Source: a bacterium
GTDB taxonomy: Bacteria; Hinthialibacterota; Hinthialibacteria; H5-UNCL2
DNA: 64,000 bases
Reading direction: 5' to 3'
Assembly (NCBI GenBank): GCA_015075175.1
Contig: JABTUV010000001.1
Location: 186,001-250,000, forward strand
The first letter of the stretch is position 1. Every line of letters begins with the position of its first letter. Made by a program: the position numbers and the translations under genes. The notes under the pieces were generated by a model. It saw nothing but the letters and a program-made list of their open reading frames with translations. It was not told the origin of the DNA and searched no databases. This document shows, piece by piece, positions 26,942 to 59,316 of this stretch.

Positions 26942-28294
26942 ATGCGCGCCCTGCTTCGCCACGTTCTCTTCTTCCTCATCGCCCTGTTGCGCGTGCTGGA
27001 CCGCACGCTGGGCCGCGTCCTGGCCCCGGTGCTGGTTCCGCTCTTTCGCGTGTGCGTTTGGGCCTTGCATACGCCGTTGGGCGTGATTCTTCCGCCCGTC
27101 CTCATGCTCATGGGCGCGTACCTGTTGGCCGCCCGACCGGCGCTGCGGCAGGAACTGCCGGACACGACCTGGCTGCCCCTCTGGTCGCACATGTGGATCG
27201 ATATTCTTGTCGCCATCGTCGGCATTGTCCTCTTGGGCCCCATGTGCATGGTGTACATCACCTGGCTGGAGCGGAAACTGCTGGGCCGCTTCCAGAACCG
27301 CTACGGCCCCAACCGCGTGGGCAAGTACGGCCTCCTGCAGCCCTTCGCCGACGGCATCAAGATGCTGATCAAAGAAGACATCGTCCCGCGCGGGGCGGAT
27401 CGCGCGCTGCACTTCATCGCGCCGGTCGTCATCGTGGTACCGCCGCTGGTGATCTTCTCCGTGCTGCCGCTGGGACCGGGCATGTCGGCCCTGCCGATGG
27501 AGGTGGGCGTGCTTTTCTTCTTCGCCCTTTCCGGCATCTCGGGCGTGGCCATTTTTCTGGCCGGCTGGGCCAGCCACAACAAGTTCAGCCTCCTGGGCGG
27601 CATGAGGGCGGTGGCGCAACTGGTTTCCTACGAAGTGCCGTTGCTGCTCTCCGTGGTGGTCGTCATCATGGTCGCAGGCACGCTCTCGACCGACAAACTG
27701 GTCGAGGCGCAGACCGCGGGTCGCTGGTTTGTTTTCACTCCCTGGGGGCTGGTCGGCTTCCTGCTCTTCTTCACGGCGGGGTTGGCTGAGGTCAATCGCA
27801 CGCCCTTCGATCTGCCCGAGGCCGAGTCGGAGCTGGTGGCCGGTTTTCACACCGAGTACTCCGGTTTCAAGTTCGCGCTGTTTTACCTGGCCGAGTTCAT
27901 CGCCGCGGTCGCCATCGCGGGTCTGACGGTGACGCTGTTTCTGGGCGGCTGGTCGCTGCCCGGCGCCGACCGCTATCCCATGCTGGCGCCCGTCGTGTTT
28001 CTCTCCAAGGCCGCCTTGCTCGTGCTGGTCATGGTCTGGTTCCGCGGCACCTTCCCTCGGCTGCGCATCGACCAGGTGATGACTTTCTCCTGGAAGTTCC
28101 TCTTGCCCCTGGCGCTGGTCAACATTATCGTGGCGGGGATTTGGATTTTCCTGGTGCGCGACGGCTCCTGGAGGTCATTTGGCATCGGCTGGGCGGTCGG
28201 CGCCATCATCCTGATTGCGTTTTACGTCTGGCTGAATCGCTTCACTGCGCCGAGTACGATCGAGAAGCGCGTTTACCGCTTCGCGGAAGAGTAG
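26942..28294 (+). CDS. nuoH: NADH-quinone oxidoreductase subunit H
   Basis: 450 residues. ATG 26942 directly follows the nuoI stop. About nine membrane helices; the quinone-channel signatures WLERKLLGRFQNRYGPNRVG and EVNRTPFDLPEAESELVAGF are intact. An extra N-terminal hydrophobic region of ~80 residues precedes the usual first helix. The TAG stop lies within the left end of a hairpin repeat (28291-28363). Confidence 0.96.
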   Translation: MRALLRHVLFFLIALLRVLDRTLGRVLAPVLVPLFRVCVWALHTPLGVILPPVLMLMGAYLLAARPALRQELPDTTWLPLWSHMWIDILVAIVGIVLLGPMCMVYITWLERKLLGRFQNRYGPNRVGKYGLLQPFADGIKMLIKEDIVPRGADRALHFIAPVVIVVPPLVIFSVLPLGPGMSALPMEVGVLFFFALSGISGVAIFLAGWASHNKFSLLGGMRAVAQLVSYEVPLLLSVVVVIMVAGTLSTDKLVEAQTAGRWFVFTPWGLVGFLLFFTAGLAEVNRTPFDLPEAESELVAGFHTEYSGFKFALFYLAEFIAAVAIAGLTVTLFLGGWSLPGADRYPMLAPVVFLSKAALLVLVMVWFRGTFPRLRIDQVMTFSWKFLLPLALVNIIVAGIWIFLVRDGSWRSFGIGWAVGAIILIAFYVWLNRFTAPSTIEKRVYRFAEE

Positions 28295-28363
28295 GGTGGG
28301 TTTCACCCACCGCCGGGTAATCGGGGGGCATACAGCGCGGGTGGTGGGTGGAACCCACCCTAC
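28291..28363. repeat. Family F hairpin element in the nuo operon
   Basis: GTAGGGTGGGTTTCACCCAC (from 28291) and its one-mismatch reverse complement ending at 28363 are 21-bp terminal inverted repeats around ~31 bases. The nuoH stop codon is bases 2-4 of the element. It could form a strong hairpin in the nuo transcript. Confidence 0.85.
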
Positions 28364-28395
28364 CGCTCCACGGGATGCGCCCGTAATCGACAGCA

Positions 28396-28470
28396 CTGAT
28401 TACGATTCGTAATCGTCATCGTAATCTTGCTCGTGCTCGTAACCGAGCAAGATCAAGATCAAGATTAAGA
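28396..28470. repeat. Family K nested inverted repeats
   Basis: GATTACGATTCGTAATC and a second pair built on AATCTTGCTCG and CGAGCAAGAT form stacked hairpins upstream of nuoJ. The same GATTACGA/TCGTAATC words form a perfect inverted repeat at 43275-43315. No gene fits in 28295-28483. Confidence 0.65.
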
Positions 28471-28483
28471 TTAAAACACGAGC

Positions 28484-29026
28484 ATGGACGAAATCCTCGC
28501 AAAATCCGCTCAGAGTAGCGCGCCGGCTTTATGGGTGGGGGCGGCGTTTGCCGTCTCTTTCGGCCTGGTCGTGGCGGGAAGTCTTGGCGCGGCCTTACTG
28601 AAGAACCTGCTCCACGCCGTGCTCTTTCTGGCACTGGCGCTTCTGGGAGTCGCCGGACTGTTTCTCATGCTTTCGTCCACATTTCTTTTTGTGGTGCAGA
28701 TACTCGTGTACGTGGGCGGAGTGGTGATTCTGCTCATCTTCGGCGTGATGTTGACGAGCAAGATGGCGCAGCCTGACATTCCACCGCGCAACCGGCAGAC
28801 GCTGGCGGCGGCGCTCTTGGCGCTGCTGCTCTTTTGCGCGACGGCTTACGTTCTGACCACGCACCCGTGGATGGTTTCCGCCGAGCCGCCCGCCGTGCCG
28901 GTAGCCGAAATCGGGGTGGGGCTCTTGCAGAAATACGTCTTGCCCTTTGAAATCGTCTCGGTCGTGCTCCTGGTCGCCATGGTGGGCGCGATCGTTCTGG
29001 CGCGCAGGGAGCCGGAATCCAAATGA
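28484..29026 (+). CDS. nuoJ: NADH-quinone oxidoreductase subunit J
   Basis: 180 residues and five membrane helices. The conserved run STFLFVVQILVYVGGVVILL (third helix with the pi-bulge region) is intact. The stop overlaps the nuoK start by four bases. No good ribosome-binding site is seen before ATG 28484, where a repeat-filled 189-base gap interrupts the operon. Confidence 0.95.
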   Translation: MDEILAKSAQSSAPALWVGAAFAVSFGLVVAGSLGAALLKNLLHAVLFLALALLGVAGLFLMLSSTFLFVVQILVYVGGVVILLIFGVMLTSKMAQPDIPPRNRQTLAAALLALLLFCATAYVLTTHPWMVSAEPPAVPVAEIGVGLLQKYVLPFEIVSVVLLVAMVGAIVLARREPESK

Positions 29027-29355
29027 TCCCGCTGATTCCCCTGCCGTGGTTCCTGGGACTGGCCGCCTTCATGTTCTTCTGCGGCGTGTTCGGGGCTTTG
29101 ACGCGCCGCAACGCCGTCGGCATCCTGGTAGCCATCGAGTTGATGCTGAACGGCGTGACGCTGACGCTGGCGGCGTTCGCGCGTTTTCTTCCCCCCGGCG
29201 CGGACGGCGCGACTCCGCTGGCCGGACAGATGCTCGTGGTCTTCATCATCGCCCTGGCCGCCGCCGCCGCCGCCGTCGGCCTGGCCATCGTGCTGGCCAT
29301 CTTCCGGACCTTCTCGTCCATCGACTCCCAGCAGATCAACATCATGAGGTGGTAG
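29023..29355 (+). CDS. nuoK: NADH-quinone oxidoreductase subunit K
   Basis: 110 residues and three helices. Has the conserved glutamate in GILVAIELMLNGVTL and a second acidic residue later (SSIDSQQINIMRW at the C-terminus is family-typical). It overlaps nuoJ, and nuoL follows after 10 bases. Confidence 0.95.
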   Translation: MIPLIPLPWFLGLAAFMFFCGVFGALTRRNAVGILVAIELMLNGVTLTLAAFARFLPPGADGATPLAGQMLVVFIIALAAAAAAVGLAIVLAIFRTFSSIDSQQINIMRW

Positions 29356-29365
29356 CGGACCGGCC

Positions 29366-31438
29366 ATGCACGCACTCGTCGCCTACGCTTATCTGATCCC
29401 GCTCCTGCCGCTGGCCGCGTTCGTCCTGATTATTTTCTTCGGACACCGCTACTTCTATCGCGGCAGCGCCTGGCTGGCGGTGTTGTGCACGTCGGCCAGC
29501 TTCGTGCTCTCACTGGCGGCTTTTCTCCATGTGCTGGGCGGCCACGGCTACGTCGAACCGATCCGGCAGGATTTCACCTGGATCGCCAACTTCGCTCCCG
29601 GCGCCGTGGACGCGACCGGCGCGGCGCTGCTCCACTCGTCGATCACCCTCGGCGTTTACATCGACCGCCTGGCCGCCCTCATGCTCATGGTGGTCGCCGG
29701 CATTTCCACCCTCACCATCTTCTACTCGATCGGCTACATGCACGAAGACCCGCGCTATCCGCGCTTCTTCGCTTATAAGAGCTTCTTCGCCTTCTCCATG
29801 CTGGGCCTCGTGGCCGCGCCCAACTTCTTTCAGATGTTCGTCTTCTGGGAGCTGGTGGGCCTGGCCAGCTATCTGCTGATCGGCTTCTGGTTCGAGAAGA
29901 CCTCCGCCTCCGACGCGGCCAAGAAGGCGTTCATTACCAATCGCATCGGCGACGTGGGGTTTTTGATCGGCCTCTTGTTGCTCTTCTATTACGTGGGGAC
30001 GGTGACCTTCAGCGATCTCACTCCCGATCTTCTGCGCGAGAAGGGCTTTGTGGGGGGCATGGCGACGTTCATCGGTCTTGCGCTGTTCTGCGGCGCGGTG
30101 GGCAAGAGCGCGCAGTTCCCGCTGCACGTCTGGCTGCCGGACGCGATGGAGGGTCCCACCAGCGTGTCGGCCCTCATCCACAGCGCGACCATGGTGGCCG
30201 CCGGCGTGTACATGATCGTGCGCGCCTATCCGGTCTTCGCCGCCTCCGAGACGACGCTGGCGACAATCGCCGCCGTCGGCGCCATTACCGCCCTGGGGGC
30301 GGCCTACATCGCGCTCACCCAGACCGACATCAAGCGCATCCTGGCCTATTCGACGCTATCGCAATTGGGTTACATGATCTTCTCCTGCGGATGCCTGGGT
30401 CCGGTCGCCGCCTTCTTTCATCTGGTCACGCACGCCTGCTTCAAGTCACTGCTCTTTCTGGGGTCCGGCTCGGTCATCCACGCCTGCCACCACGAGCAGG
30501 ACATCCGGAGCATGGGCTCGCTGCGACGGTATCTTCCCATCACGCACGGGACGTTTCTCATCGCGTGCCTGGCGCTGGCGGGCGTCTTTCCGCTGGCGGG
30601 GTTTTTCTCGAAGGACGAAATTCTGCTTTCCGCGTGGCATCGCTATCCCGCAGTGTTCATCATAGGTGAGATCGTCGCCGCGCTGACGGCGTTCTATATC
30701 TTCCGACTGTACTTCGTAGCGTTCGGCGGAGAGCGCTTTCGTGGCACGGGCGTCTCGCCCGTGCAGCATGGGCAGGATGCCCATGTCACGGCGGGAGGGC
30801 AGCACGGGCAGGATGCCCATGCCACGCCGCATGAGTCGCCCTGGACCATGACGCTGCCGCTGGTCATCCTGGCGATTCTCGCCGTGGGCGTGGGTTGGAT
30901 CAACTGGCCCTGGGCGGAACGTCCCTGGCTGGCCGGTTTCGTGCACGTCGAGGGCGGCCAGCACCATCATCTCTCCTATCTGGTGATGGGCGTCTCCACC
31001 GCTGCGGCGCTGCTCGGGCTCTTTTTCGCCTGGCGCAAGTACTCCCTGGGGCGCGCCCTGCCGCCCTTGGAATACTCGAAGGTCGGCTTCTGGTATCGCC
31101 TCTCCCTGCGCAAGTTCTGGATCGATGAGTTCTACAAGAAGTACATCGTCGATGGTTTCACCTTCGGCTTCTGCGTGGTCGGTATGCACGACGTGTTCGA
31201 CCGGAGGATCGTGGACGCCTTCGTCAACCTGTGCGGGCGCGCCTACATGCTCATCTCCGCCGTTCACGGCCTGTTCGACAAGTACGTGGTGGACGGCCTC
31301 GTGAACTTCTCCGCCTGGTTCCTAGCGCTGTGCAGCACCGTCGCCCGTCGCACCCAGACGGGACTGGCGCAGAGCTCGCTGTTGATCCTGGTCCTGGGCC
31401 TGTTGGTGTTGATCGTCTGGTCGGCGATGATGGTATGA
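29366..31438 (+). CDS. nuoL: NADH-quinone oxidoreductase subunit L with in-frame repeat insertion
   Basis: 690 residues. The antiporter-like core is complete: HEDPRYPRFFAYKSFFAFSM, the lysine/glutamate channel region, LPDAMEGPTSVSALIHSATM and HACFKSLLFLGSGSVIH. Between residues ~459 and ~487 an extra segment (GTGVSPVQHGQDAHVTAGGQ onward) is inserted; it is the translation of a hairpin repeat at 30741-30825. The normal sequence resumes with HESPWTMTLPLVILAIL, so the reading frame is kept. The insert falls in a loop between membrane segments. The long lateral helix region at the C-terminus is present. Confidence 0.95.
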   Translation: MHALVAYAYLIPLLPLAAFVLIIFFGHRYFYRGSAWLAVLCTSASFVLSLAAFLHVLGGHGYVEPIRQDFTWIANFAPGAVDATGAALLHSSITLGVYIDRLAALMLMVVAGISTLTIFYSIGYMHEDPRYPRFFAYKSFFAFSMLGLVAAPNFFQMFVFWELVGLASYLLIGFWFEKTSASDAAKKAFITNRIGDVGFLIGLLLLFYYVGTVTFSDLTPDLLREKGFVGGMATFIGLALFCGAVGKSAQFPLHVWLPDAMEGPTSVSALIHSATMVAAGVYMIVRAYPVFAASETTLATIAAVGAITALGAAYIALTQTDIKRILAYSTLSQLGYMIFSCGCLGPVAAFFHLVTHACFKSLLFLGSGSVIHACHHEQDIRSMGSLRRYLPITHGTFLIACLALAGVFPLAGFFSKDEILLSAWHRYPAVFIIGEIVAALTAFYIFRLYFVAFGGERFRGTGVSPVQHGQDAHVTAGGQHGQDAHATPHESPWTMTLPLVILAILAVGVGWINWPWAERPWLAGFVHVEGGQHHHLSYLVMGVSTAAALLGLFFAWRKYSLGRALPPLEYSKVGFWYRLSLRKFWIDEFYKKYIVDGFTFGFCVVGMHDVFDRRIVDAFVNLCGRAYMLISAVHGLFDKYVVDGLVNFSAWFLALCSTVARRTQTGLAQSSLLILVLGLLVLIVWSAMMV
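30741..30825. repeat. Family A-related hairpin repeat inside nuoL
   Basis: Starts GTGGCACGGG and ends GCCCATGCCAC, with inner hairpins CACGGGC/GCCCGTG and two copies of CATGGGCAGGATGCCCAT or a close variant. A shorter intergenic relative lies at 36328-36377. Here it is translated within nuoL. Confidence 0.85.
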
Positions 31439-31481
31439 TGAAGTGAGACACTGTCGCCGGGCCGGCGCGGCAGTGAGTCAC

Positions 31482-31556
31482 GAGTAAGAGTAAGAGTAAG
31501 ATTAAGAGCAAGAGCAAGATTAAGATTAAGTTTAAGATTGAGAGAAAGTAAGAGAA
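31482..31556. repeat. Low-complexity AAG/ATT purine-rich tract
   Basis: Short irregular repeats of GAGTAAGAGTAAGATTAAGA type fill the gap between nuoL and nuoM. The tract is sharply AT- and purine-rich against the GC-rich background. No gene or terminator is present. Confidence 0.7.
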
Positions 31557-31571
31557 GCGGGAGACGCCTGA

Positions 31572-33119: not shown

Positions 33120-33128
33120 GAGACGGCC

Positions 33129-34607: not shown

Positions 34608-34635
34608 AGCCCGTATCGACGGCAAGGGCAGCACC

Positions 34636-34735
34636 CCTCGATACGGCCTGCGGCCTACTCGGGGCGAGGCGCTGCGCAACTACGGCGCGGCAGCAAGCAG
34701 CCGCAGTCCACAAGCGCAGCGCGCTGCGCAACTGC
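34636..34735. repeat. Cluster of repeats H, B and C
   Basis: H at 34636-34664 (CCTCGATACGGCC...CTACTCGGGG), inverted B at 34669-34686, C at 34687-34711 (GCGGCAGCAAGCAGCCGCAG) and another B at 34714-34735. Together they fill the gap between nuoN and dacB. Confidence 0.75.
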
Positions 34736-34756
34736 GAGAGCAGACGATCGAGTTGG

Positions 34757-36301: not shown

Positions 36302-36327
36302 GATTCCATCTCATGTGGGAATCTGGG

Positions 36328-36477: not shown

Positions 36478-37874
36478 ATGGCCAAAATCGGCGTCATTAC
36501 TTTCTCGGACGGACGCAAGAACGTGCACGAGAGCACGTTGGAAATGAACCTGAGTTTCCAGAACGGATTGGTGGACCAACTGGAAGGCCGGCCACGGTGG
36601 TGGTGGCCGACGAAATCCCTGGACCAACGAGGCTGGCGCGCGGCGGCCAGAAGATGGCCGCCAGTCGCGTGGACATGACCATTTTCAACTATGCCATCTG
36701 GTCGTAGCCGCTTCACCGCCATCGCCGCGCAGTTCGCCAGGCCCGTTCTCTGCTTCTCCAACGTCAATCCCTCGTTTCCCGGCCTGGTCGGCATGTTGGC
36801 GAGTTCCGGCGCGCTGGACAACATCGGCGTGCCCTACAAACGCATCGTCGGCGACGTGTCCAAGAAGAAGGTGATCGGCAAAGTGCTCAGGTGGGTCAAT
36901 GCCGCCGGCGCCGTGGCCGCGCTGAAGGGCGAGACCATGGGCGTCTTCGGCGGCCGTCCCATGGGCATGTACACCGCCACTTCGGGGACGGACCAGTGGA
37001 TGGCGCAGTTCGGCGTCGACGTCGAGCATATCGACCAGTGGGAGATCGTGCGCCGCGCCGGCCTTGTGCCCAAGAAGAAGGTCGAGTCGGCGCTCAAGTG
37101 GTGCAAGGAGAACGTCGGCCGGATCCTCTGGGACGAAAAGCAGCTCACCGAGGACCACTTGCGCCGCCAGCTGGCCAGCTACTACGCCGTACGGCAGATG
37201 GTGGAGGAGATGCATCTGGACTTCTGCGGCATCAAGGGCCAGCCGGAGCTCACCAACAACTGGTGCACGATGGACGTGCCCGAGGCGTTCCTGAACGATC
37301 CTTATGATTTCGACGGCCCCAAGCCGATCATCGTGTGCAGTACCGAGGCCGACATGGACGCGGCGCTGACGATGGAGATTTTCAAGCATCTGGCCAAGAC
37401 GCCGGTGCTGTTCGCGGACGTGCGGCATTACTTCGAGAAGGAGGGCATCTGGGATTTCGTCAACTCGGGCCAGCACGCGACCTACTTTGCGGCCAGGAGT
37501 TTTGATCCGAAGGACAACATGCCGCACGTGACGTTCTATCCCGAGGGCTTCTACTTCCCGGCGGGCGGGGCCAGCGTGCAGCATCTGGCGGCGCCGGGCG
37601 ACGTGACGCTGGCGCGCCTGGGCCGCAAGAACGGCCGCTACTGATGGCGATTCTGCCCGGCAAGTTCCTGCAATACGACAAGAAGAAGAACGAGAAGTTG
37701 ATGAAGGAGACGCAGATCGAGTGGCCGCACGCCTTCTTCAAGCCGGACGGCGACAGCGAGGAGATCATCGCGGAGGTTCCCTGCAACCATATTCACGGCG
37801 TATACGGCGACTTTGTCGAGGAACTGACCATCGTGTGCGAATTGCTGGACGTGGAGTACGAGGTGTACGCGTAG
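36478..37874 (+). CDS. L-fucose/L-arabinose isomerase-fold protein (three frameshifts)
   Basis: From ATG 36478: MAKIGVITFSDGRKNVHEST, a typical fucose-isomerase-superfamily start. The frame shifts near 36590 (continuing TVVVADEIPGPTRLA and VDMTIFNYAIWS), returns near 36705 (RFTAIAAQFARPVLCFSNVN) and runs to a TGA at 37642. One missing G would turn that TGA into TGG and continue with MAILPGKFLQYDKKKNEKLM to the real end, VEYEVYA. Restored length is ~465 residues, normal for the family. Candidate metal or active-site residues include Glu/Asp in KGQPELTNNWCTMDVPEA and His in CNHIHGVYGD. The likely role is sugar isomerisation; the exact substrate is unknown. The TAG stop is followed by GGTCGCC, like other stop-adjacent repeats. 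Confidence 0.75.
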
Positions 37875-37912
37875 GGTCGCCGCTGTTGCGACGGGAGAGA
37901 GGACGGCAACAA

Positions 37913-37943: not shown

Positions 37944-37993
37944 TGGTCGCGGTTGCCGCGAGCTGCGCGCTGGCGGAAGGCCGTCGCGAGGCA

Positions 37994-38660: not shown

Positions 38661-39852
38661 TCCGACATCTCGCACGCAATCGAAAGGTGCGGCATTGCAC
38701 TGTCCCTCTACTTCATTCGCACCAGCCTGCCCGGCCCACAGGCGCATACCGTGCAGGTGGTCGAGAACGCGCGCTGGCGGAGGCGGGCTGCGAGGTGCCT
38801 CTTCGCGGGGCGGACGGCGATAAGTGAGGAGGAGGCTGCTCGCCTGGTACGGCTTGGCGCCCTGTCCCAACTGGCATTTTCATCCCGTGCCGCTTCTCTT
38901 GAAGAGAGGCTGGCTTCCCAACTCCAGCGGCATGTTGCTCTGGACGTATCGCTTCTCCGGCTTGGCGCGGTCGCTCGATCCGAAATCGACCATCGTCTTC
39001 ACGCGCCAGACGAAAATCTGCCGGCTGGTCTCGCAGTCGCCCATGCTGCGGCGTTTCACCCACGTGCACGAGGTTCACGACCTTAAGGACGTGTCGGAGC
39101 GCGGCCCTGACGGCGTCCCCGGCCATTGGGAATATTACGAAATCGGACGCGCGCACGGAGTCGTCTGTGTGCCGGCCCCCTGCGTGGAAATCCTGCGCAG
39201 ACGAATCGCCCACGCGCGCCCCATCCTCTGGCTGCCCAACGGCGGCACGCCGGATCCCGATCCGTGGAGCGACTGGGAAAAACGTGAGGGCGTGCTCTAC
39301 GTCGGCAGCCTCTTTCCCTATGAAGGCTTCGGTACGCTCTTGGACGTGATGCAGCGCCTGCCGGAGGGGCGACTGACGGTCGTGGGCGGGCATCCCGAGT
39401 CGGCGCTGGCAGCGGCCAAGGCGCGCGCGGACGAGATGGGCGTGGCGGACAGAGTCAATTTCGTCGGCTTCGTTCCGCCGGGACGAGTACGGGAATATCT
39501 CCGCCGGGCGCTGGTGGTGGTGGCGCCGCTGCGCGACAATCCGCACAATCGCTGGACCATGTGTCCCATGAAGCTGATCCAGTACATGGGCAGCGGCGCG
39601 GCCATGGTCGTGCCCCGGTTTCCCACTACCGAGCCGCTGCTGGCGCATCCCCATGAGGCGCTGCTCGTGCGTCCGGACGACCCGGCCGCGCTGGCGGCGG
39701 CGGTGGGACGGTTGCTTGGCGAGCGCGAATGGTGTAGAAAGATGGCCGAGGCCGCCTGCCGGCGCGCGCTCGCGTACAGTTGGCCGGCCCGCGCGCAAAA
39801 ACTGGTGCGTTTCTTCGATGCCGTAATTGCGCAGCGTGCTGCGAGGCCGTAG
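38652..39852 (+). CDS. GT4-like glycosyltransferase (frameshifts near the N-terminus)
   Basis: From ATG 38652: RCGIALSLYFIRTSLPGPQA, QAHTVQVVENAR, then the frame is disturbed between about 38775 and 38830 (LAEAGCEV and FAGRT lie in different phases). It continues from LLAWYGLAPCPNWHFHPVPL to the end. The C-terminal Rossmann domain shows ILWLPNGGTPDPD, VLYVGSLFPYEGFGTLLDVM and MKLIQYMGSGAAMVVPRFPT, the usual GT4 nucleotide-sugar binding region. Restored length is ~400 residues. The last residues (AVIAQRAARP) and the stop are supplied by a family B repeat. It lies near dTDP-rhamnose genes, so a role in glycan assembly is plausible. Confidence 0.75.
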
Positions 39853-39870
39853 TTGCGCAGCGTGCTGCGC
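39823..39870. repeat. Two family B repeats in tandem
   Basis: GTAATTGCGCAGCGTGCTGC (39823) and GTAGTTGCGCAGCGTGCTGC (39849). The stop of the glycosyltransferase frame (39850-39852) is the TAG of the second copy. Confidence 0.85.
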
Positions 39871-42124: not shown

Positions 42125-42146
42125 GTAGTTGCGCAGCGTGCTGCGC
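42125..42146. repeat. Family B hairpin repeat upstream of rfbB
   Basis: An exact copy of the 22-bp GTAGTTGCGCAGCGTGCTGC-type unit in the rfbC-rfbB divergent gap, 30 bases from the rfbB start. Confidence 0.8.
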
Positions 42147-43184: not shown

Positions 43185-43192
43185 GCTGCGCA

Positions 43193-43315: not shown

Positions 43316-43356
43316 GTGCTCGTATTGCGAGATGGAGTCGGTGCGCGGTGCGCACC

Positions 43357-44253
43357 CTACCGTTCCATCTCCGCCGCCAGGGCGCGGAGATAGTCGTAAT
43401 AGGGCCCGTCGGGGCCTTGGCGCGCCAGCTGGGCGAAGTCGCGCGCGGAGATGAACCCCATGCGCAGGGCGATTTCCTCCAGGCAGGCGACGGAGAGGCC
43501 CTGGCGGCTTTCCACCGCGCCGATGAAGCTCCCCGCTTCCAGGAGACTGCGGGGCGTGCCGGTGTCCAGCCAGGCGATGCCGCGCCGCAGGATCTCGACG
43601 TGCAGGCCGCCGCGCCGCAGGTACTCAATGTTGACGTCGGTGATCTCCAGCTCGCCGCGGGCGGAGGGGCGAAGCCGCTCCGCAATCTCGATCACCGTGG
43701 TGTCATAGCAGTAAAGACCCACCACGGCGTAAGGGCTTCTCGGACGGGCGGGCTTTTCCTCGATGGAGAGGACGCGGCCGGCGGCGTCGAACTCGACCAC
43801 TCCGTAACGCTGCGGATCGGCCACGTGATAGCCGAAAATGGAGGCGCCGGTAGTTCGCTGCAGCGCGCGGCGGAGAAAGTCATGGTCGCCGTAAAAGATG
43901 TTGTCGCCCAAAACCAGGCAGACGGGGCGGCCGGCGATGAAATCGCGCGCCAGGAGAAACGCCTGCGCGATGCCCTCGGGCCGGGCTGCGCCAGGTAACT
44001 GAGCGCACGCCCAATCGCGCGCCGTCGCCCAGGGCTGTTGAAAACGCGGCGGGTCCTCAGGCGTGGAGATGATGAGAATCTCGCGGATGCCCGCCAGCAG
44101 CAGCGTGCCGATGGGATAATAGACCATCGGCTTGTCGTAGACGGGCAGGAGATGCTTGTTGGTCGCCAGGGTAGTGGGAAAAAGGCGCGTGCCGGCTCCG
44201 CCCGCCAGCACGATTCCCTTCCAGTCGCCTGCACTCGCGCCGTCATGGATCAT
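43357..44253 (-). CDS. rfbA: Glucose-1-phosphate thymidylyltransferase
   Basis: 298 residues from ATG 44253, with AGGAGG upstream. KGIVLAGGAGTRLFPTTLAT, KPMVYYPIGTLLLAGIREIL, LGDNIFYGDHDF and VVEFDAAGRVLSIEEKP are intact. Between 43985 and 44040 the read PWATARDWACAQLPGAARPE is out of phase. Three compensating single-base losses would restore LGDGARLGV and LSYLAQP, the normal family text, so this patch is very likely a sequence error. The TAG stop lies inside a GTAGGGTGCGCACC repeat word. It overlaps the end of rfbD by 11 bases. Confidence 0.93.
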   Translation of the reverse strand: MIHDGASAGDWKGIVLAGGAGTRLFPTTLATNKHLLPVYDKPMVYYPIGTLLLAGIREILIISTPEDPPRFQQPWATARDWACAQLPGAARPEGIAQAFLLARDFIAGRPVCLVLGDNIFYGDHDFLRRALQRTTGASIFGYHVADPQRYGVVEFDAAGRVLSIEEKPARPRSPYAVVGLYCYDTTVIEIAERLRPSARGELEITDVNIEYLRRGGLHVEILRRGIAWLDTGTPRSLLEAGSFIGAVESRQGLSVACLEEIALRMGFISARDFAQLARQGPDGPYYDYLRALAAEMER

Positions 44254-45134
44254 GGGGAATTCCTCCTGTCGGGGCGAATCGGGTTCGTCGGTGATGATCC
44301 CTGGGGCCGCGCAAGGCGAGGTACTCGGACAGCGCCTCGCGCCAGGGGCGCAGCGGCGGCAGCTCTCGCTGGCCAGGGCGGAGTTGGCCGGCACGGGTAC
44401 GGGACCCTGGCGCTTGATGCCGACTACGGGCGTGTCCGCCATGCCCGCCTGCGAGAGGATTTCGCGCGCGAACTCGAACCAGCTGCACGGCCCCGCGTTG
44501 GCGAGATGATAGAGTCCCGGCGCGAGCGAAAAAAGCCGGTCGCGCAGAAAACGCGCCACGTCCAGGCTGAAGGTGGGAGTGCACACGGCATCCTCCACCA
44601 CTTGGAGCGTCCTGCCGGCTTGGGCCTGTTCGAGAATCTTCTCGACGAAGTTCCCGCCGCCCTTGGTCCGGCATCCCGTGGTTCCAAAGAGGGCCGAAAG
44701 GCGAAAGATGAACCACGTTCCAGCCCGCATGGCGAGCGCTTCGCCCGCCAGCTTGGAAACGGCGTAAACGTTCTGCGGGCAGGGCGGATCGTTCTCCACG
44801 TAGGCCGCGCCCTTCTCGCCGGAGAAGACGTAGTCGGTGCTGAAGTGGACGAATCGCGCGCCCACCTGCCGGGCCTGTCGCGCCAGGATCGCCACGGCCG
44901 CGGCGTTGACGGCGAACGCCGGCAGCGGATTCTCCTCCGCAGCCCCCACGTCGTTGTAGGCGGTCGCATTGATGATCCACTCGGCCTCTCGCGAGGCGAA
45001 CCGCGACGCCACCGCGCGCGCGTCCGTCACGTCGAGATCGTCCGGACCATAGGCGTCCTGCTCGTGGCCGGAGAGCCCCGCGCCAAGTCGGACCCCAGCT
45101 GTCCGGTGGAACCGAAGAGCACGATGCGCGCCAT
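44243..45134 (-). CDS. rfbD: dTDP-4-dehydrorhamnose reductase (two frameshifts)
   Basis: From ATG 45134: MARIVLFGSTGQLGSDLARG, a normal RmlD start. The phase changes near 45070 and continues LSGHEQDAYGPDDLDVTDAR, INATAYNDVGAAEENP, FVHFSTDYVFSGEK and the catalytic YAVSKLAGEAL. It changes again near 44370, and the natural C-terminus LPPLRPWREALSEYLALRG is found in the phase that ends at 44243. Restored length is ~297 residues. It makes dTDP-L-rhamnose. It is co-transcribed with rfbA. Confidence 0.85.
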
Positions 45135-45176: not shown

Positions 45177-45345
45177 GTAGGGTGCGCACCGCGCACCGCC
45201 GGCCGGCCCGTTTGCACCGTCCCAACGGTGCGACGCGCACCCTACCGGCCGGCCAGCCAGTCCCAACGGTGCGCGATGCGCACCCTACCGGCCGGCCAGC
45301 CAGTCCCAACGGTGCGCGATGCGCACCCTACCGGCCGGCTAGCCA
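45177..45345. repeat. 43-bp tandem repeat (family G)
   Basis: Unit boundaries at 45240, 45283 and 45326 on CCCTACCGGCCGG, spaced exactly 43 bases; a degenerate further copy begins near 45177. Each unit carries GGTGCGC...GCGCACC. The right end overlaps the stop codon (45328-45330) of the amidotransferase-like gene. Confidence 0.9.
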
Positions 45346-46073
45346 GTTGACGAGGTTGCCCCACAGCGGCGCGTAGCCGGGCCAATCCATGAAGGCCGCC
45401 GGGCCCCAGTGTGGCGCGCAGTCGGACGTGAACGCCGCCGACCGCCCTTTCCCGTAATGTCCGACGACCAGCAGCGGGTCCTTCTCGAACATGAGGACCG
45501 GCGTGCTGCCCATCTTGGGAATCACCTTGTTGTAACCCAGAAAATACGGCCACTCCTTGGGCAGGCCCTTCAGAATGGGATGCTCGAGATCGACCGGTTG
45601 AGGGATGCAGCCTTCGGGCCGCTCCATGCGATCGTCGTAGGGCAGGCATTCGACCGTCAGAGCCTCCTCGAGCGCGGAGCCGTGATACTTGGCGCGTCCG
45701 TCCATGCCGGCGAACGACATCCAACCGCCGATCATGGCCATGCCGCCGCCGGCTGCCACGTAGTCCCGGATCAGCGCCAGCCGGTTGGGGTGCCGAATGC
45801 CCTGCTTGAGCATCTCGGGATGAAAGTAGAACGTGTTGGAACCCACGTCGGAGACCAGGATCACGTCATACTTCTGCAGGGCGGAAAGCTCTTCGGGAAG
45901 TCGAGCGTGACGTTGCAGGTCATGATCCAATCCAACTGGTGTCCCTGCGCCTCCAGGGCGGCGCGGATCCTGCGTCCTCCGGGATGAAAGCCGCCCACGC
46001 CGAAATAGTCCGCGCCCTTGAACTCCAGCGTCCAAGTCTGCGCCTGCTCGCCGACGAAAAGAACTTTGCTCAC
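45328..46073 (-). CDS. Class-I glutamine amidotransferase-like protein (one frameshift)
   Basis: From GTG 46073: SKVLFVGEQAQTWTLEFKGA, YFGVGGFHPGGRRIRAALEA. The phase shifts near 45900 and continues PEELSALQKYDVILVSDVGS, VAAGGGMAMIGGWMSFAGM, LTVECLPYDDRMERPEG and YGKGRSAAFTSDCAPHWGP. This is the PF07090-like GATase1 family of cytosolic proteins with no known substrate; the nucleophile Cys of true glutaminases is not seen at the GGGMAMIGG elbow. The stop TAG and final GR are in the tandem repeat. Confidence 0.7.
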
Positions 46074-46162
46074 GATGGAAACCTCGCATGGTGGGATAAG
46101 GTGCGGACACCATGCCACAAAAAAATGAACTTCCACCATCACGCGCTGAGCAAGTCCCAAGC

Positions 46163-47397
46163 CTATGCTTTGACGTCCCCGAGCTGCGGCCGACCGCCCA
46201 GGCCGATTGTCCTGAGCGAAGGCCGAAGGCCGGAGTCGAAGGGCGGCTGCAGGCCGCTACGTTCCCGCGAAAGCGCGCGCAGCCGCGCAAGATGCTTGGG
46301 GACGGCGGCCAGGATGGCGTCGATGTCCTCGTCGGTATTCTCATGCGCGAAAGCGAAAACGCACCGCGCCGAGCGCCTCCTCGGGGCTGCGGCCCATCGC
46401 CAGGAGGACGTGACTCGGTTCGGTCCGGCCCGCCTTGCAGGCCGAGCCGCTGCTGGCGCAGATGCCTTCCTCGCCCAGGGCAGAGAAGCGCCTCGCCTTC
46501 GATGCCGGGAATGCACGTTGAGCGTATTGGGCAGGCGCTCGGCGTGTTCGCCATTGACGAGGATGCAGGGGTCCAGCGCGCAGAGGCCGGCCTGCAGGCG
46601 ATCGCGCAAGGCGGCCACGCGCGGCCAATCCCCCAGCCGGCGTTTCGCCAGCTCCGCCGCCGCTCCCATGCCGACGATGCCGGGCACGTTCTCGGTTCCC
46701 CGAGCGGCGTCCTCCTGGCCGCCTCCCAGATTCTGCGCCACCAGTCGCGTCCCGCGCCGCACATAGAGCGCGCCGACGCCCTTGGGACCGTGGGAACTTG
46801 TGACCCGACAGCGGGCCAGTACAGGTCCGTCGCGATGCGCCCGGAGGTCGATCTTCCCCACGCCTGCACGGCGTCGCAGAAGTACGGCACGCCCGCCTCC
46901 GCGGCGACGGCTGCGATCTCACGCACGGGAAAACGCACGCCCGTCTCGTTGTTGGCGGCCATCCCGGCGATGAGGGCCGTGTCGGGCCGCACAGCCCGTC
47001 GCACGTCGGCGGGGTCCAGTCGCCCCTGCCCGTCGACGGAAAGCCGCGTGACTTCCCAGCCGCGCCGCGCATAATGCGAAAGCACTTCATAAACGGCCGC
47101 GTGCTCGACCGGCGAGGTGATGACGTGCCGGCCCGCGTTGGGCCGCTCCAGCACGCCGCGGATGGCCAGGTTGTTGCTCTCGGTCCCGCCGGAAGTAAAG
47201 ACGACCTCCTCGGGCCGCGCGCCCATCAGGTCCGCGACGCGCGCCCGCGCGGCGGACACGTCCCGCTCCAATTGCGAACCGAAGGCGTGCACGCTGCTGG
47301 GATTGCCGTATCGTTCCGAGAAATACGGCTGCATCGCGGCAAGCACTTCCGGCGCGGTTCGGGTCGTGGCGTTGTTGTCGGCGTAGATGATGCGCAT
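46163..47397 (-). CDS. Cysteine desulfurase (NifS/IscS-like), multiply frameshifted
   Basis: From ATG 47397: MRIIYADNNATTRTAPEVLA, YGNPSSVHAFGSQLER, FTSGGTESNNLAIRGVLERP, HVITSPVEHAAVYEVL and AANNETGVRFPVREIAAVA are all in one phase. After about 46855 the frame changes several times. LSGHKF (PLP lysine), HGPKGVGALYVRRG, GGQEDAARGTENVPGIVGMG and ICASSGSACKAG (active-site cysteine) are all still present but in different phases. All key residues therefore survive, which favours sequencing indels over decay. The last ~30 residues come from a repeat (46205-46260). Confidence 0.7.
46205..46260. repeat. Family J intergenic repeat overlapping the desulfurase 3' end
   Basis: A stretch around GTCCTGAGCGAAGGCCGAAG, followed by GGAGTCGAAGGGCGGCTGCA. 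It resembles a repeat word I have seen in many bacterial genomes (from memory). Only one copy occurs in this window. Confidence 0.4.
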
Positions 47398-47630
47398 GGC
47401 CGGTCCCCTGGGCGAGGAGTACTTGGAGGCTTGGATCGCTGCTACCGTCGATATCCAACACAGCCCGACGATCAACGTTCGCCTTATCATAGCCCATCAC
47501 CGCCTTGCGCGCAACCCGATGATGGCGTCGGGCGCAGTCGCAGAAAACGGCGGCCGCAGTCCGCGCGACGCCGCAACAGGCGGTCGTCGCGGCGCCGGTG
47601 GAATTAAGCTGTCATGTCGACCGAAACTCC
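47398..47630. other. Intergenic stretch without a supported gene
   Basis: The first part of the gap 47398-47937, which separates the desulfurase start from the dockerin-type gene end. GC-rich; includes GGCGGCCGCAGTCCGCGC, weakly like family C. No promoter stood out. Confidence 0.3.
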
Positions 47631-47720
47631 CTGTCATTTCGACCGAAGGGAGAAATCTTCCCCGCCGTTACCGCAAGTCGCACGCGAAGCTGGAGAATTC
47701 TCGCGTCGGTCGAAATGACA
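47631..47720. repeat. Family E inverted-repeat element
   Basis: TGTCATTTCGACCGAAGGGA (from 47631), with the complementary TCGGTCGAAATGACA ending at 47720. Same ends and similar length (~90 bp) as the copy at 16116. The stretch 47721-47937 shows nothing else. Confidence 0.85.
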
Positions 47721-47937
47721 GCAGCGCCGCCAACCGCAACCGCCGAAAGCGGCGCCTCCGGCCAAGAGGTCCCCGCGTGAGCCTCGAAATACGATCCGCC
47801 GGGCGCGTTATCATGCCGGTCGGCGTCCCGACGCGCCGTGGGACCGCCATGGCGTCGCGCGCGACGAGGGCCGCGTGCAGTTGATGAAGTTGATGATGCG
47901 TTTCCTGACGAGCGTCTGAAACAGGGTGGGGCGGGGA

Positions 47938-53396: not shown

Positions 53397-53403
53397 CAGC
53401 GGA

Positions 53404-54771: not shown

Positions 54772-54839
54772 GGCCGTCCTTCTCCTGGTCATCCTGGACG
54801 TGTCGCGTCCGGGTCGAGCGCAAGACGCAGCGTCCCGTC

Positions 54840-55512: not shown

Positions 55513-55557
55513 GGGCCTATGATACGAGCTGGGCGCGCCGCGGGCAAGATGCTGTTT

Positions 55558-55629
55558 GTGGAGCGCCGCTGCCTGCTGCCGCGTCGTGGGGATTCCCCCT
55601 CACCCCAACCCTCTCCCCGAGGGAGAGGG
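55558..55629. repeat. Family C and family D repeats
   Basis: GTGGAGCGCCGCTGCCTGCT at 55558-55583 (C) and CCCCTCACCCCAACCCTCTC onward at 55596-55629 (D). D encodes the last residues and the stop of the neighbouring hydrolase gene. Confidence 0.8.
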
Positions 55630-56706
55630 AGTGCGCAGCATCTTGCCTTGCCAAGTGGCGCGGGCGATGCAGAAGTACTTGTGGACCGTGTCGATGCGCG
55701 CGGCGTAGTACATCACGTAACCGCCGCGGTCGCGGAGGATGGTCTGGCTGGAAACGTAGGCGCGATCATAGCTGCTGTCACGCACGGGTGTAAAGACGGG
55801 GTTGTCCGGGTTCTTCTTCCAAACTATGCCGTCCGGGCTTGTCGCCATGCCCATCGCCGTGGTCAACACTCCCCAACCCGATTTCCAGTAGGCGGCGTAG
55901 TACATGATCCACGTCTTGTCCTCCTTCCACACGTAAGGATAGACAAGCGCCGCGGGCGACCGGACTCCATCGGGACCCGGCTCCCATTGCGCCTCCCAGT
56001 TGTGTTGGTCCAGTTCCAGCATGGGATTGGCGGGATGCGGCGAGAGCGAATAAAGATCGGGGCCGGTCGCCAGAAAGATACGCCACGGCCGCTGCGAGCC
56101 ATCGACGTGGTACATGCGGTACTCCCCGCCCACCTTGAGCAAGCAGGGCGCATAGGCGTCGCGATAGATCGGGTTCCGGGCATCCAGCGCCCAGGTGAGA
56201 CCGTCCGGACTGGTCGCATGTTCGACGTCGTTCCTGCGGTTGCCGTTGAATACGAGGTGCCAGAGACCGTTCTCCTTGTGCAGTTCGGTGTTGGGCTTGC
56301 GCAGCAGCGCGGGCGCGGCGTGGAAGTTGGCCCGCTCCGTCAAGGGAAAGATCGGCCCGCCGGTCTTGTGGAAATGCACGCCGTCGTCGGAGAGAGCCAG
56401 GCCCAGCTGGTAATTGACGTACTGGCGGCCGCTGCCTTCCGTATCCGGTGCCAGGTCCGGATCCCCCTGCGGGCCGCCCGAGTAGAACATGTAATAACGT
56501 CCCTTCACCTTGACCACGCAGGGGGCGAAGATGTTCCAGTGGTCGAAGGCGCCCGCCGGTCCGAGCGACAGCACGGGCCTCTGTGGGTCGCGCACCCAGC
56601 CTCTAGGCCCTTGCTTGGCGTGTCCGCGATCGATGAGAGTTCCCGCCAGTCCCAGCGCGGACGTCGCGAGCATCTGGCGGCGCGTGAGTCTTGCGGTCCC
56701 TTTCAT
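55600..56706 (-). CDS. Tat-type beta-propeller glycosidase-like protein
   Basis: 368 residues from ATG 56706, with AAGGGGAGA upstream. The Tat-like signal is ARLTRRQMLATSALGLAGTL. The body is a five-bladed beta-propeller of the GH32/43/68 type, with blades opening as YMFYSGGP, LALSDDGVHF, HLVFNGNRRNDVEHATSPDG, YRMYHVDG and WIMYYAAYWKSGWG. The acidic catalytic residues cannot be placed by eye with confidence. The C-terminus (KMLRTPSPSGRGLG) is the translation of a family D repeat. It is a tandem paralogue of the next gene upstream, with high identity throughout. Exported carbohydrate-active or binding protein. Confidence 0.8.
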   Translation of the reverse strand: MKGTARLTRRQMLATSALGLAGTLIDRGHAKQGPRGWVRDPQRPVLSLGPAGAFDHWNIFAPCVVKVKGRYYMFYSGGPQGDPDLAPDTEGSGRQYVNYQLGLALSDDGVHFHKTGGPIFPLTERANFHAAPALLRKPNTELHKENGLWHLVFNGNRRNDVEHATSPDGLTWALDARNPIYRDAYAPCLLKVGGEYRMYHVDGSQRPWRIFLATGPDLYSLSPHPANPMLELDQHNWEAQWEPGPDGVRSPAALVYPYVWKEDKTWIMYYAAYWKSGWGVLTTAMGMATSPDGIVWKKNPDNPVFTPVRDSSYDRAYVSSQTILRDRGGYVMYYAARIDTVHKYFCIARATWQGKMLRTPSPSGRGLG

Positions 56707-56746
56707 GGCGCATCTCCCCTTCGGTAGCAGCACGCGGCGCAACCTC

Positions 56747-56782
56747 CCCCTCACCCCAACCCTCTGCCCGAGGGAGAGGGGG
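56747..56782. repeat. Family D repeat
   Basis: CCCCTCACCCCAACCCTCTG followed by the complementary GAGGGAGAGGGG. It encodes the C-terminal residues and stop of the upstream paralogue. Confidence 0.85.
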
Positions 56783-57821
56783 TGCGCAGCATCTTGCCCT
56801 GCCAGGTGGCCATGCCGATGGCGTAATACCGATGGATGGTATCGATACGAGCCCCGTAATACATCCGGTAGCCGTCGCCGTCGCGGATGATGCACTGGCT
56901 GGAGACGTAGGCGCCGTCATAGTTGCTGCCGCGCGTCGGTTTGAACACGGGATTGTCCGGATGCTTCGTCCAGGCCAGTCCCGTCGCGCTCTTCGCCATG
57001 CCCATCGCCGTCGTCTGATGCCCCCAGCCGGATTTCCAATAAGAGGCGTAATACATGATCCACGTCTCGTCTTCCAGCCAGACGTAGGGATAGACGAGCG
57101 CGCTCGTGCCGACCTCGTCCGTCGCCTCCCAGTCGTGCTGGTCCAGAATCAGCATGGGATTGTCGGGATGCGGTTTGAGTGAATAGATGTCCGGCCCGGT
57201 CGCCAGGTGGATTTCCCACGGACGTACGCCGCCGTAGGTGTAATACATGCGATACTCGTTGCCGACTTTCAAGAGACAGGGCGCATACGCGTTGGGGAAG
57301 ATGGGATTCCGCTCGTCCAGCGTCCAGTCAAGTCCGTCGGGACTGGTCGCGTGAAAGACCTCGTTCCTGCGATTGGCGCAGAAGATCATGTGCCAGAGCC
57401 CGTTTACTTTCAGAAGCCGGGTATCCGGCGTGCGCAGGACGGCGGGGGTGCATTGAAAGTTCATGCGGCTCGTGAGCGGGAAAATGGGTTTGCCGGTCTT
57501 CTGAAAGTGCGCGCCGTCGTCGGAGAGCGCGATACCGAGTTGATGGTTCACGTAACCGCCGTCGTCGGGACCGGTCGGCCCGCCGGAGTAATAGAGAAAG
57601 TAGCGGCCGTTCTCTTTCACCGCGCAGGGGGAGAAGATGTTGAAGCCGTCAAAGGAGCCTTTGGGTCCGAGCGAGAGCACGGGGCCTTCGGGATTGCGCA
57701 CCCAGCCGGGGTGCGGTTCTTGGGCGCGGGTGCGTCCCGCAAGCAGCGTACCGGCTACGCCGAGAGCGGTCGTCGCCAGCACGTGGCGGCGGGTGCAGGT
57801 GTCGGGATGGATGTCGCGCAT
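56751..57821 (-). CDS. Tat-type beta-propeller glycosidase-like protein (tandem paralogue)
   Basis: 356 residues from ATG 57821 (GGGAGA upstream; ATG 57839 is an alternative). The Tat-like signal is CTRRHVLATTALGVAGTLLA. Same propeller as the downstream gene: VKENGRYFLYYSGG, LGIALSDDGAHFQKTGKPIF, HMIFCANRRNEVFHATSPDG and WIMYYASYWKSGWGHQTTAM. It too ends KMLRTPSPSGRGLG from a family D repeat, so either the duplication carried the repeat with it or both genes were captured at the same point. Confidence 0.8.
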   Translation of the reverse strand: MRDIHPDTCTRRHVLATTALGVAGTLLAGRTRAQEPHPGWVRNPEGPVLSLGPKGSFDGFNIFSPCAVKENGRYFLYYSGGPTGPDDGGYVNHQLGIALSDDGAHFQKTGKPIFPLTSRMNFQCTPAVLRTPDTRLLKVNGLWHMIFCANRRNEVFHATSPDGLDWTLDERNPIFPNAYAPCLLKVGNEYRMYYTYGGVRPWEIHLATGPDIYSLKPHPDNPMLILDQHDWEATDEVGTSALVYPYVWLEDETWIMYYASYWKSGWGHQTTAMGMAKSATGLAWTKHPDNPVFKPTRGSNYDGAYVSSQCIIRDGDGYRMYYGARIDTIHRYYAIGMATWQGKMLRTPSPSGRGLG

Positions 57822-57878
57822 GGACGGGTGTTCTCCCATAAGTTTCAGCCGCGAATCGATTCAATTGGCTGTTCTTGA

Positions 57879-57907
57879 TGGTTAACCGGATGGCTGGAGC
57901 TTGTCAA
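57879..57907 (-). promoter_or_regulatory. Possible promoter for the hydrolase pair
   Basis: A perfect TTGACA (minus strand, 57902-57907), a 17-base spacer and a weak TAACCA at 57879-57884. About 58 bases upstream of ATG 57821. Confidence 0.35.
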
Positions 57908-57919
57908 GGGCAAGGGCGC

Positions 57920-57952
57920 TCCCTCTCTGGGGGAGAGGGTTGACGTGAGGGG
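57920..57952. repeat. Family D repeat, opposite orientation
   Basis: CCCTCTCTGGGGGAGAGGGT followed by TGACGTGAGGGG, the inverted form of the repeats at 55596 and 56747. Confidence 0.7.
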
Positions 57953-57967
57953 GGCGCCTACGGATGG

Positions 57968-59240
57968 CTATCGCAAGAGAAACGCCTCTCCGCCTCGCAA
58001 CCAATAGCGCAGGTGGCCGCGGTCGCCTGGCTTGTCCTCGTACCGGTGGGGCAGCGTACGCAGGAGTTTGGGATCGCCCAGCTCGCGAAAGAGTGGACTT
58101 GTGGGATCGAAGCGATTGAAGGTATAGATGCCCGAGACTCCCGCCTCCCACGCATCCAGCGCCTCCCCGCGCCACAAAGGCAGGTCGTCTCCGCCCTCGG
58201 GATTGCTCGACGAGACCAGCCGCGAACCGGACAGGCACGCATAGACGGGAACATCATACCTGCGGCCGAGCTCCGCCCAGTTCCTCCACGGCTCCAGGTG
58301 GATGTAACCGCCGCCGACAAGAATGTCGACCAGCCGTTCCTTTAGCCACGTCTCCAGGTCGAGACCAATGGCCAGCGAGTACGACACGCTGTCCGGCACG
58401 CGCGCGGCCAAGAGGATCGGGCGCCGCCGTTCGCTTTGCGACCCGATCGCACAGCGCCCGCACGCGCGCAACCAACGCCGTCATGGCCTCGCATTCCTCG
58501 TGTGAGGCTCGTCCGCCCAGCATCTGGGACTTGAAGTAGACGGGATGCCGGAAAAAGTCCAACTCGACCCCGTCGATGTCATAGCGTGTAATCACGTCCT
58601 CCAGAATGCGATAAACCTTCTCGCGCACTTCCGGCTCGCCATAGTTCACAGCGGACCAGCGGCCGTTGCCGGCGGCGAAGCGCTCGCCCTCGCGCCCCAT
58701 CAACAGCTCGGGATGGTCCTTCTTCCACTGGGCCATGAGTTCCCGATAGGCGCGGCTGCTGTCGTGGGTGTCGTTCATGCGCATGGACCAGAAAATCTCG
58801 ATTTCATGTTTGCGACAGAACTCGATCATGATGGTGAGCGGGTCCTTGCCGCAATTCGCGTACAACTCACTCGCGAAGGTGCGGCGTTCTCCGTAGAGAT
58901 GGTCGCGCATTTCCGTCACGCCGCTGTGATTGGTGTAGACGTTGAATACGCCCGTGCAATAAAAGATGGCGTCTACCTGCGAACCGAGAAGGGGAGTCGT
59001 GCGACGCGCCAGCAGCGCCTGGGGCGTGGCGGTGTATTCCTCCGTGGCGAAGTTGACGATGCAGTCGTTGCCGTCGTTGTTCATGATGATGCGGCGGGGC
59101 TTGTGCGCAGCCTCGTGGCGGGCGCGGGCCAGATCGAAGCCCCCGTCGCTCCCGGCGCGGTCGAGGGCGTTGCAGGCGCAAAAGAACAGGAGCAGGCCGC
59201 CGGCGCACGTCAGACGAAGCGCGCTGTAGAACGGCGGCAT
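57968..59240 (-). CDS. Family-10-like glycosyl hydrolase lipoprotein (one frameshift)
   Basis: From ATG 59240 with GGAGG upstream. A hydrophobic signal with a possible lipobox (GGLLLFFCAC) is followed by RRIIMNNDGNDCIVNFATEE, FNVYTNHSGVTEMRDHLYGE, EIEIFWSMRMNDTHD and the TIM-barrel acidic site YDIDGVELDFFRHPVYF. The phase shifts near 58430-58470, and the C-terminal half continues ILLAARVPDSVSYSLAIGLD, ILVGGGYIHLEPWRNWAELG, SGIYTFNRFDP. ~420 residues restored. A GHL10/COG1649-like outer-membrane lipoprotein is the best guess; substrate unknown. Confidence 0.7.
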
Positions 59241-59242
59241 GA

Positions 59243-59316
59243 TGGACCTCCGGTGCGTAGTGGGGACCACGGACCCGGGCGGACGCCGCACGAACGGGAC
59301 GCCCGTGCCCCACCTA
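59243..59316. repeat. Family L repeat at the transketolase 3' end
   Basis: On the minus strand GTAGGTGGGGCACGGGCGTC begins at the stop codon (TAG 59314-59316). A loosely complementary GTGGTCCCCAC lies near 59260. Confidence 0.55.

Follow-up and report, generated by a model that had tools for sequence, protein, structure and literature searches.

GTAG-Class REP Elements Share, and May Supply, the TAG Stop Codons of Genes in a Hinthialibacterota Genome

Introduction

How do short repeats come to lie so precisely at the ends of unrelated genes that their first letters serve as the stop codon? The question is raised by a stretch of 64,000 nucleotides from a bacterium of the phylum Hinthialibacterota (assembly GCA_015075175.1, contig JABTUV010000001.1, positions 186,001 to 250,000 of the forward strand; G000:C1:186001-250000 in our numbering), which we refer to as the window. 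The genes for NuoH, RfbA and an amidotransferase-like protein in the window stop on the TAG of hairpin repeats (GTAGGGTGGGTTTCACCCACC or GTAGGGTGCGCAYCGCGCACC). These repeats are repetitive extragenic palindromic (REP) elements with a GTAG head. An original prediction, made from the window alone, had proposed that the repeats are placed exactly at the 3' ends of genes, either by targeting of the element or by selection for copies whose first bases act as a stop. We examined how exact the placement is, whether the affected proteins are complete, and which was there first, the TAG or the repeat.

Precision of the Placement

The repeats were surveyed in a sample of 1.63 Mb, consisting of the entire contig 1 and parts of eight other contigs of the 4.98-Mb assembly, which is 84% complete. 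A total of 1,167 genes were called in this sample with a fifth-order in-frame Markov model, and the copy numbers of the repeats were controlled by exact matches to the reversed word. The offset of each repeat TAG to the stops of genes on the same strand was recorded in the range from -60 to +200.

The sample contained 234 GTAG-headed palindromes (GTAGGGTGCG, GTAGGGTGGG/GGA, GTAGTTGCGCA and GTAGCGCCGGC). The repeat TAG coincided with the gene stop, at offset 0, in 59 copies, whereas every other offset in the range was occupied by at most 2. The original prediction had called for a genome survey of how often the repeat TAG is a stop codon, and the enrichment was clear: 58 to 59 of about 230 repeat TAGs were the stops of called genes, as compared with 112 of the 6,740 other GTAG words (Fisher's test, 4e-45). 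The excess remained when the comparison was restricted to non-coding GTAG words, 112 of 1,631 of which are stops (5e-18), so that the repeats were still found 3 to 5 times too frequently at stops, and it persisted when the intergenic background was arbitrarily halved for missed genes (2e-7). Counted as clusters, 53 of 158 contained a stop. Within 250 nt of gene 3' ends, the 59 in-frame copies stood against 5 out-of-frame copies on the same strand, and the hairpin started 0 to 2 nt behind the repeat-formed stop. The exact placement that had been proposed was thus borne out, with a sharpness well beyond what chance would give.

It was also noted that repeats facing away from the gene, with the foot of the hairpin towards it, had their nearest border about 10 nt or more behind the stop, with none closer where about 4.5 were expected. 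A native stop displaced to a fixed offset directly behind the repeat was looked for and not found.

Class of the Repeats

By their anatomy, the repeats are GTAG-class REP elements and their inverted pairs (REP doublets forming hairpins, REPINs). They are palindromes of 20 to 40 nt with an unpaired GTAG 0 to 2 nt 5' of the hairpin foot, and the consensus sequences, GTAG+GGTGCGCACCGCGCACC and GTAG+TTGCGCAGCGTGCTGCGC, form a short GC-rich hairpin with the GTAG at its foot. The median minimum free energy of the 26 nt after a repeat-formed stop was -13.1, versus about -4 to -5 after the stops of other genes. The repeats occurred as singles, in tandem arrays, and in inverted pairs with both GTAGs outward, as in REPINs and bacterial interspersed mosaic elements (BIMEs), and were mainly extragenic, with about 27 to 29 of about 230 located within called genes. 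Exact matches genome-wide numbered 218 for GTAGGGTGCGC, 53 for GTAGGGTGGG and 183 for GTAGTTGCGCAGCG, as compared with 8, 18 and 0 for the respective reversed controls. In the window, GTAGGGTG was found 7 times versus 0.65 expected from shuffled sequences, while GTAGGTG, with 4 occurrences versus 2.8 expected, was at chance level.

The same head is present in the published table of REPs, in GTAGGGTGGGTCTTGACCCACC (GTAGGGTGGG...CCCACC) of Haemophilus parasuis. According to previous work, GTAG is a guide tetranucleotide bound by the REP-associated tyrosine transposase (RAYT, or TnpA-REP), and is treated as part of the element rather than as the target. The inverted pairs with outward GTAGs described here resemble the REPINs of these systems (Bertels and Rainey 2011, PMC3116915; Nunvar 2010, PMC2817692; Quentin 2018, PMC6006769). 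Unlike in them, a RAYT gene with GTAGGGTG or GTAGTTGCGC repeats on its flanks did not turn up in the genome, which is 84% complete.

A close parallel is the description of GTAG-tagged REPs by Di Nocera, De Gregorio and Rocco 2013 (PMC3733652), which likewise have an unpaired 5' GTAG and a high copy number, occur as single copies, dimers and arrays, and are located behind genes or between convergently oriented ones; their hosts include Chloroflexi, Planctomycetes and Verrucomicrobia. In the authors' words, the GTAG termini of REPs "often provide" flanking open reading frames (ORFs) with their TAG stop, and the original prediction, which knew of no such rule, was therefore wrong on this point. 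The overlap is covered there in one sentence, for which the main text gives neither counts nor controls, and a measurement or explanation of REP-formed stops was not found in the literature texts searched. The present analysis adds the 59 copies at offset 0, the tie to convergent gene ends, the test for truncation, the weakness of the effect in relatives and its absence from an Escherichia coli sample. The phenomenon is thus known in outline beforehand; what is new is the measurement, the effect of gene arrangement, and the element family T described below.

Repeat Sites in the Window

The repeat-associated features of the window were as follows.

26942..28294, plus strand: nuoH-like gene, 450 amino acids; stop TAG common with a REP, at the native C-terminus
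28291..28311, plus strand: REP of family A2, GTAGGGTGGGTTTCACCCACC; its TAG at 28292-28294 is the nuoH stop
28343..28363, minus strand: inverted partner REP (GTAGGGTGGGTTCCACCCACC read on the minus strand), forming a REPIN/BIME-like pair with the copy at 28291
38824..39852, plus strand: glycosyltransferase-like gene, 342 amino acids; stop TAG at 39850-39852 inside an GTAGTTGCGCAGCG repeat
39849..39870, plus strand: REP of family B, GTAGTTGCGCAGCGTGCTGCGC, stop-forming
43340..43360, minus strand: REP of family A, GTAGGGTGCGCACCGCGCACC, with the TAG 43359-43357 ending the RmlD-RfbA ORF 43357-45030/45309
43357..45030, minus strand: ORF with an RmlD-like part and a complete RfbA/RmlA part (RfbA profile matched to 285/286, at residue 552 of 557)
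45311..45331, minus strand: REP of family A, GTAGGGTGCGCATCGCGCACC, with the TAG 45330-45328 ending the amidotransferase-like ORF 45328-47490
45225..45288, minus strand: two more copies of a 43-bp tandem unit (last ~20 nt of the gene plus the REP), in the array 45225-45331
45177..45197, plus strand: inverted REP copy facing the 43-bp array
59256..59317, minus strand: single-copy hairpin GTAGGTGGGG...CCCCACTAC, belonging to no repeat family; contains the transketolase-like stop TAG, 59316-59314
37871..37892, plus strand: GTAGGGTCGCC... at the stop of the short ORF 37644-37874, belonging to no repeat family
12901..12930, plus strand: REP of family B, away from stops
2409..2438, plus strand: REP of family C (GTAGCGCCGGCATCC), away from stops, with an inverted partner at 2541-2570 on the minus strand

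The stop coordinates proposed for the nuoH (28292-28294, plus strand), rfbA (43359-43357), amidotransferase-like (45330-45328) and transketolase-like genes (59316-59314, all three on the minus strand) were correct. Of the five genes said to stop on repeat words, three (nuoH, rfbA and the amidotransferase-like gene) did so, but no repeat family was found in the 1.63 Mb for the other two: GTAGGTGGGG occurred 3 times versus 5 for its reversed control and GTAGGGTCGCC once versus 3, so that the transketolase-like gene ends on a single-copy hairpin and the word at the isomerase-like gene is not a repeat. A true case, the glycosyltransferase-like gene with its second-family repeat, had been missed.

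Several other observations were made on the repeats and genes of the window. In the tandem arrays at 45225-45358 and at G000:C1:1215309-1215389, the unit combined the REP with the final codons of the gene in front of it, and the amplified unit thus takes in coding sequence 5' of the GTAG. GTAGTTG repeats at 42125-42135 and in two other places offer a TTG that is picked as a start codon by automatic callers, probably wrongly. GTCATTTCGACCGAAGGGAGAAATCT repeats were found in inverted arrangement at 16103-16350 and 47530-47733, imperfect runs of the hexamer AAGATTAAGATTAAG were located between nuo genes at 28449-28474 and 31480-31541, and several ORFs of repetitive beta-helix-like composition with many GTGACGGTGACG-type internal repeats occupied positions 1-8800. 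The most common 12-mer in the sampled genome was GTCATTTCGACC with 176 copies, and AAGATTAAGATT occurred 82 times in the 1.63 Mb. Two tandem gene copies of ~1.1 kb (72% to 77% identical) at 55594-57839 each had the end TTGGGGTGA in a CCCTCACCCCAACCCTCTCCC repeat; no genome-wide excess was found of the CCTCTCCC/GGTTGGGGTGAGG repeats that end two duplicated genes on TGA. The NuoH protein was 56% to 57% identical to homologs in Omnitrophota and thus closer to these than to its counterparts in class relatives, with which identity did not exceed 51%; its ORF contained about 78 additional N-terminal residues.

Family T and the Y1 Transposase Genes

A separate element in this genome, here called family T, is a miniature inverted-repeat transposable element of ~90 bp, GGAAAATTAGGGTCAGCGCC...GGCGCTGACCCTAATTTTCC, with copies on contigs C1, C3, C5, C10, C12 and C46 (stretches L098 and L112). 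The terminal inverted repeats, GGAAAATTAGGGTCAGCGCC and its inverse, were found both in the ~90-bp copies and around a Y1 transposase gene, G000:C46:237765-238442 (Y1_Tnp, E 7e-13), which is flanked by the family T repeat and has its own stop inside it. Eight genes, the transposase gene included, stop on the TAG in the left end of the element, typically as GAA AAT TAG or GAA AAA TAG, and in these eight it is clearly the element that supplies the stop along with the two codons before it. Two further genes stop on a TAA located 13 nt further on in the next frame. About 10 copies start 0 to 5 nt behind a native stop, and one copy (in the C3 stretch L098, near 5715) is located directly behind a native TGA while its other end gives a TAG to the convergent neighbor. 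Elements of the RAYT type thus gather within a few nucleotides of stop codons in this genome and do deliver stops, those of 10 genes being formed by family T.

Family T and its transposase gene resemble the TIRYT-type elements of Di Nocera 2013, in which RAYT genes lie between longer terminal inverted repeats that contain GGGGWSAS, but differ from these in having stops in two frames (TAG and TAA) near the ends that are used by 10 genes. A second Y1 transposase gene, G000:C5:16315-16983 (stretch L111), was located amid many GGAGTACAAGCTTTAGCTTG...AAACTGAAGTTTGAACTCC repeats, a GGAG-headed family that is distinct from the GTAG families.

Length of the Encoded Proteins

The NuoH protein was compared with 78 homologs from Omnitrophota, Verrucomicrobia, Acidobacteria and other groups. 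Their alignments reach the end of the protein, and their stop codons (TGA in 42, TAA in 24 and TAG in 12) were placed one codon earlier in 71 homologs and at the same codon in 3. The family models of other REP-stopped genes were matched to within 0 to 6 positions of the model end: in the NCBIfam models, CysS was matched to position 465/466 at residue 461 of 462, RlmI to 381/383 at 391 of 393, OppC to 278/278 at 279 of 282, PilB to 561/564 at 565 of 568, PilT to 343/343 at 349 of 356, and Fe-ADH to 377/378 at 388 of 391; RfbA, listed above, and other proteins gave the same picture. The C-terminal overhangs of REP-stopped genes were similar to those of repeat-free control genes. The REP therefore sits at the native gene end, with no truncation of the genes.

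The original prediction had named homologs with the same stop but no repeat as evidence against itself, and such cases do exist, in NuoH as well as in two paralogs considered below. The comparisons with homologs and paralogs identify the position of the stop as native, and they are silent on which letters came first.

Relatives and Other Genomes

For DNA comparisons beyond the host we used relatives from the same class, which are outside its genus, family and order. In four such relatives with GTAGGGTGSGC repeats, the purQ gene of relative G013 was the sole real gene stop among about 50 sites. The 250 kb sampled from E. coli K-12 contained about 21 REPs, of which not one was located at a stop, and a hairpin excess behind GTAG stops was not found in contigs from other phyla. 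The rates of 1 in about 50 and 0 in about 21 mean that the stop effect depends on the lineage, for which the border of the element and the gene density may be the reason.

Origin of the TAG

Evidence that the TAG came with the repeat was provided by gene arrangement. REPs were present in 42 of 137 convergent gaps, as compared with 65 of 877 codirectional gaps, and GTAG stops accounted for 27.0% of convergent gene ends versus 13.7% of codirectional ends at least 20 nt apart (Fisher's test, 4e-6; 0.003 for high-scoring genes only). The other TAG stops (preceded by A, C or T) made up 12.4% and 12.6%, respectively, and TAA was likewise unchanged. A pre-existing pool of GTAG stops should not vary with gene arrangement and the total does, which speaks for a TAG borne by the repeat. 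In six convergent pairs, both genes stop on the outward TAGs of REPs; 13 convergent gaps contained repeats in both orientations. In addition, the purQ stop in relative G013 is the TAG of a REP at the codon where its congeners G012 and G008, which have no REP there, have TGA, and the last 14 nt of the gene differ from theirs. A further point in favor is family T, through which RAYT-type elements do supply genes of this genome with stops.

Our preferred reading, to which we assign a probability of roughly 0.58, is that RAYT-type activity brings GTAG REPs to gene ends, where they contribute their guide TAG as the stop. The elements have gathered at 3' ends, most strongly between convergent genes. 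Where the GTAG end points towards the gene, a copy is kept almost solely if its TAG falls in frame directly after the last native codon, and this TAG is then the stop. Single-strand transposition of the RAYT type would have put the REP at the gene end, and the TAG would arrive with the element and take the place of a native stop at almost the same codon. The reading draws on the observed class of the repeats, their precision and frame bias, the full-length proteins and the preference for convergent ends.

Several results weigh against it. In two collinear paralog pairs (R20/C666 and R32/C941), the member that lacks a repeat at that site has its TAG at the same codon too, which a stop older than the repeat would predict; among collinear paralog partners in general, TAG was found in 4 of 6 versus 13 of 40, which is not significant. 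The base before the stop is G in 60% of cases for TAA, whereas for TAG the figure is 46% among repeat-free genes and 56% among all genes, which hints that the repeat-borne GTAG stops come from the natural pool, a suggestive figure that is confounded. Families C and E show TAA heads (GTAA, CTAA) at gene ends, and elsewhere such heads are rare in family C and not dominant in family E. No transposase cognate to the GTAGGGTG families came to light, both Y1_Tnp genes being flanked by other repeats, and the gene set comes from our own calls. The evidence on whether the TAG of the GTAG families was borne by the repeat or was there earlier is thus divided.

A possible alternative is that GTAG or TAG is the insertion target, so that genes already ending in G-TAG were hit harmlessly behind their native stop and the repeat shares it. 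This would explain the exact offset without selection, and is consistent with the native stop position of NuoH, the two paralogs, the TAA heads in families C and E, and the depletion of G before TAG among repeat-free genes. However, it does not account for the doubled share of GTAG stops between convergent genes with other TAG and TAA stops unchanged, for the 3- to 5-fold excess at stops over non-coding GTAG words, or for the TGA in the purQ congeners. It also conflicts with the published role of GTAG as a guide inside the element, and related REPs with the same head lack the stop effect.

It is improbable that the repeats landed behind genes and that small deletions or stop losses later ran the reading frame into the repeat TAG. 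Offset 0 would then be an absorbing state, and NuoH is indeed one codon longer than most of its homologs, but small positive offsets showed no pile-up, repeats facing the opposite way showed none either, their nearest border staying about 10 nt or more from the stop, and the C-terminal overhangs were not above those of controls.

Still harder to credit is random insertion in or behind genes with selection retaining only the copies with an in-frame TAG. This would produce the frame bias of 59 versus 5. Behind genes, however, copies in the same orientation had a background density of about 0.25 to 0.4 per nt, at which 59 in-frame copies would need several hundred nucleotides of dispensable C-terminus, and the proteins are full length; random truncating insertion is thereby refuted. 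The selection for a handy stop suggested by the original prediction is, in its simple form, insufficient for the same reason. That chance ORFs upstream of a TAG-bearing repeat simply end there by definition is scarcely credible. Short genes with low scores do occur among the 59, but about 36 reach a coding score of at least 70, and at least a dozen encode enzymes or other proteins of known identity.

Implications

The shared stops offer a frame, exact to the nucleotide, for asking where REPs insert and if they are mobilized as single elements or as inverted pairs. Each of the shared-stop sites makes a prediction for the corresponding empty site, which should end in G-TAG if the repeat was inserted at a target and in another stop codon if the TAG was borne by the element. 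In roughly one-third of the sample genes that end in G-TAG, a stable hairpin begins right at the stop; in E. coli, a REP within 15 nt of the stop has been reported to lower translation. By length, the 59 shared stops in 1.63 Mb extrapolate to perhaps 150 to 180 in the whole genome. On a bolder and rather doubtful view, REPs would be targeted to stop sites by a sequence or by a feature linked to termination, with the guide tetranucleotide replacing the native stop, and well over a hundred genes of this bacterium would then depend on a mobile element for the codon that ends them.

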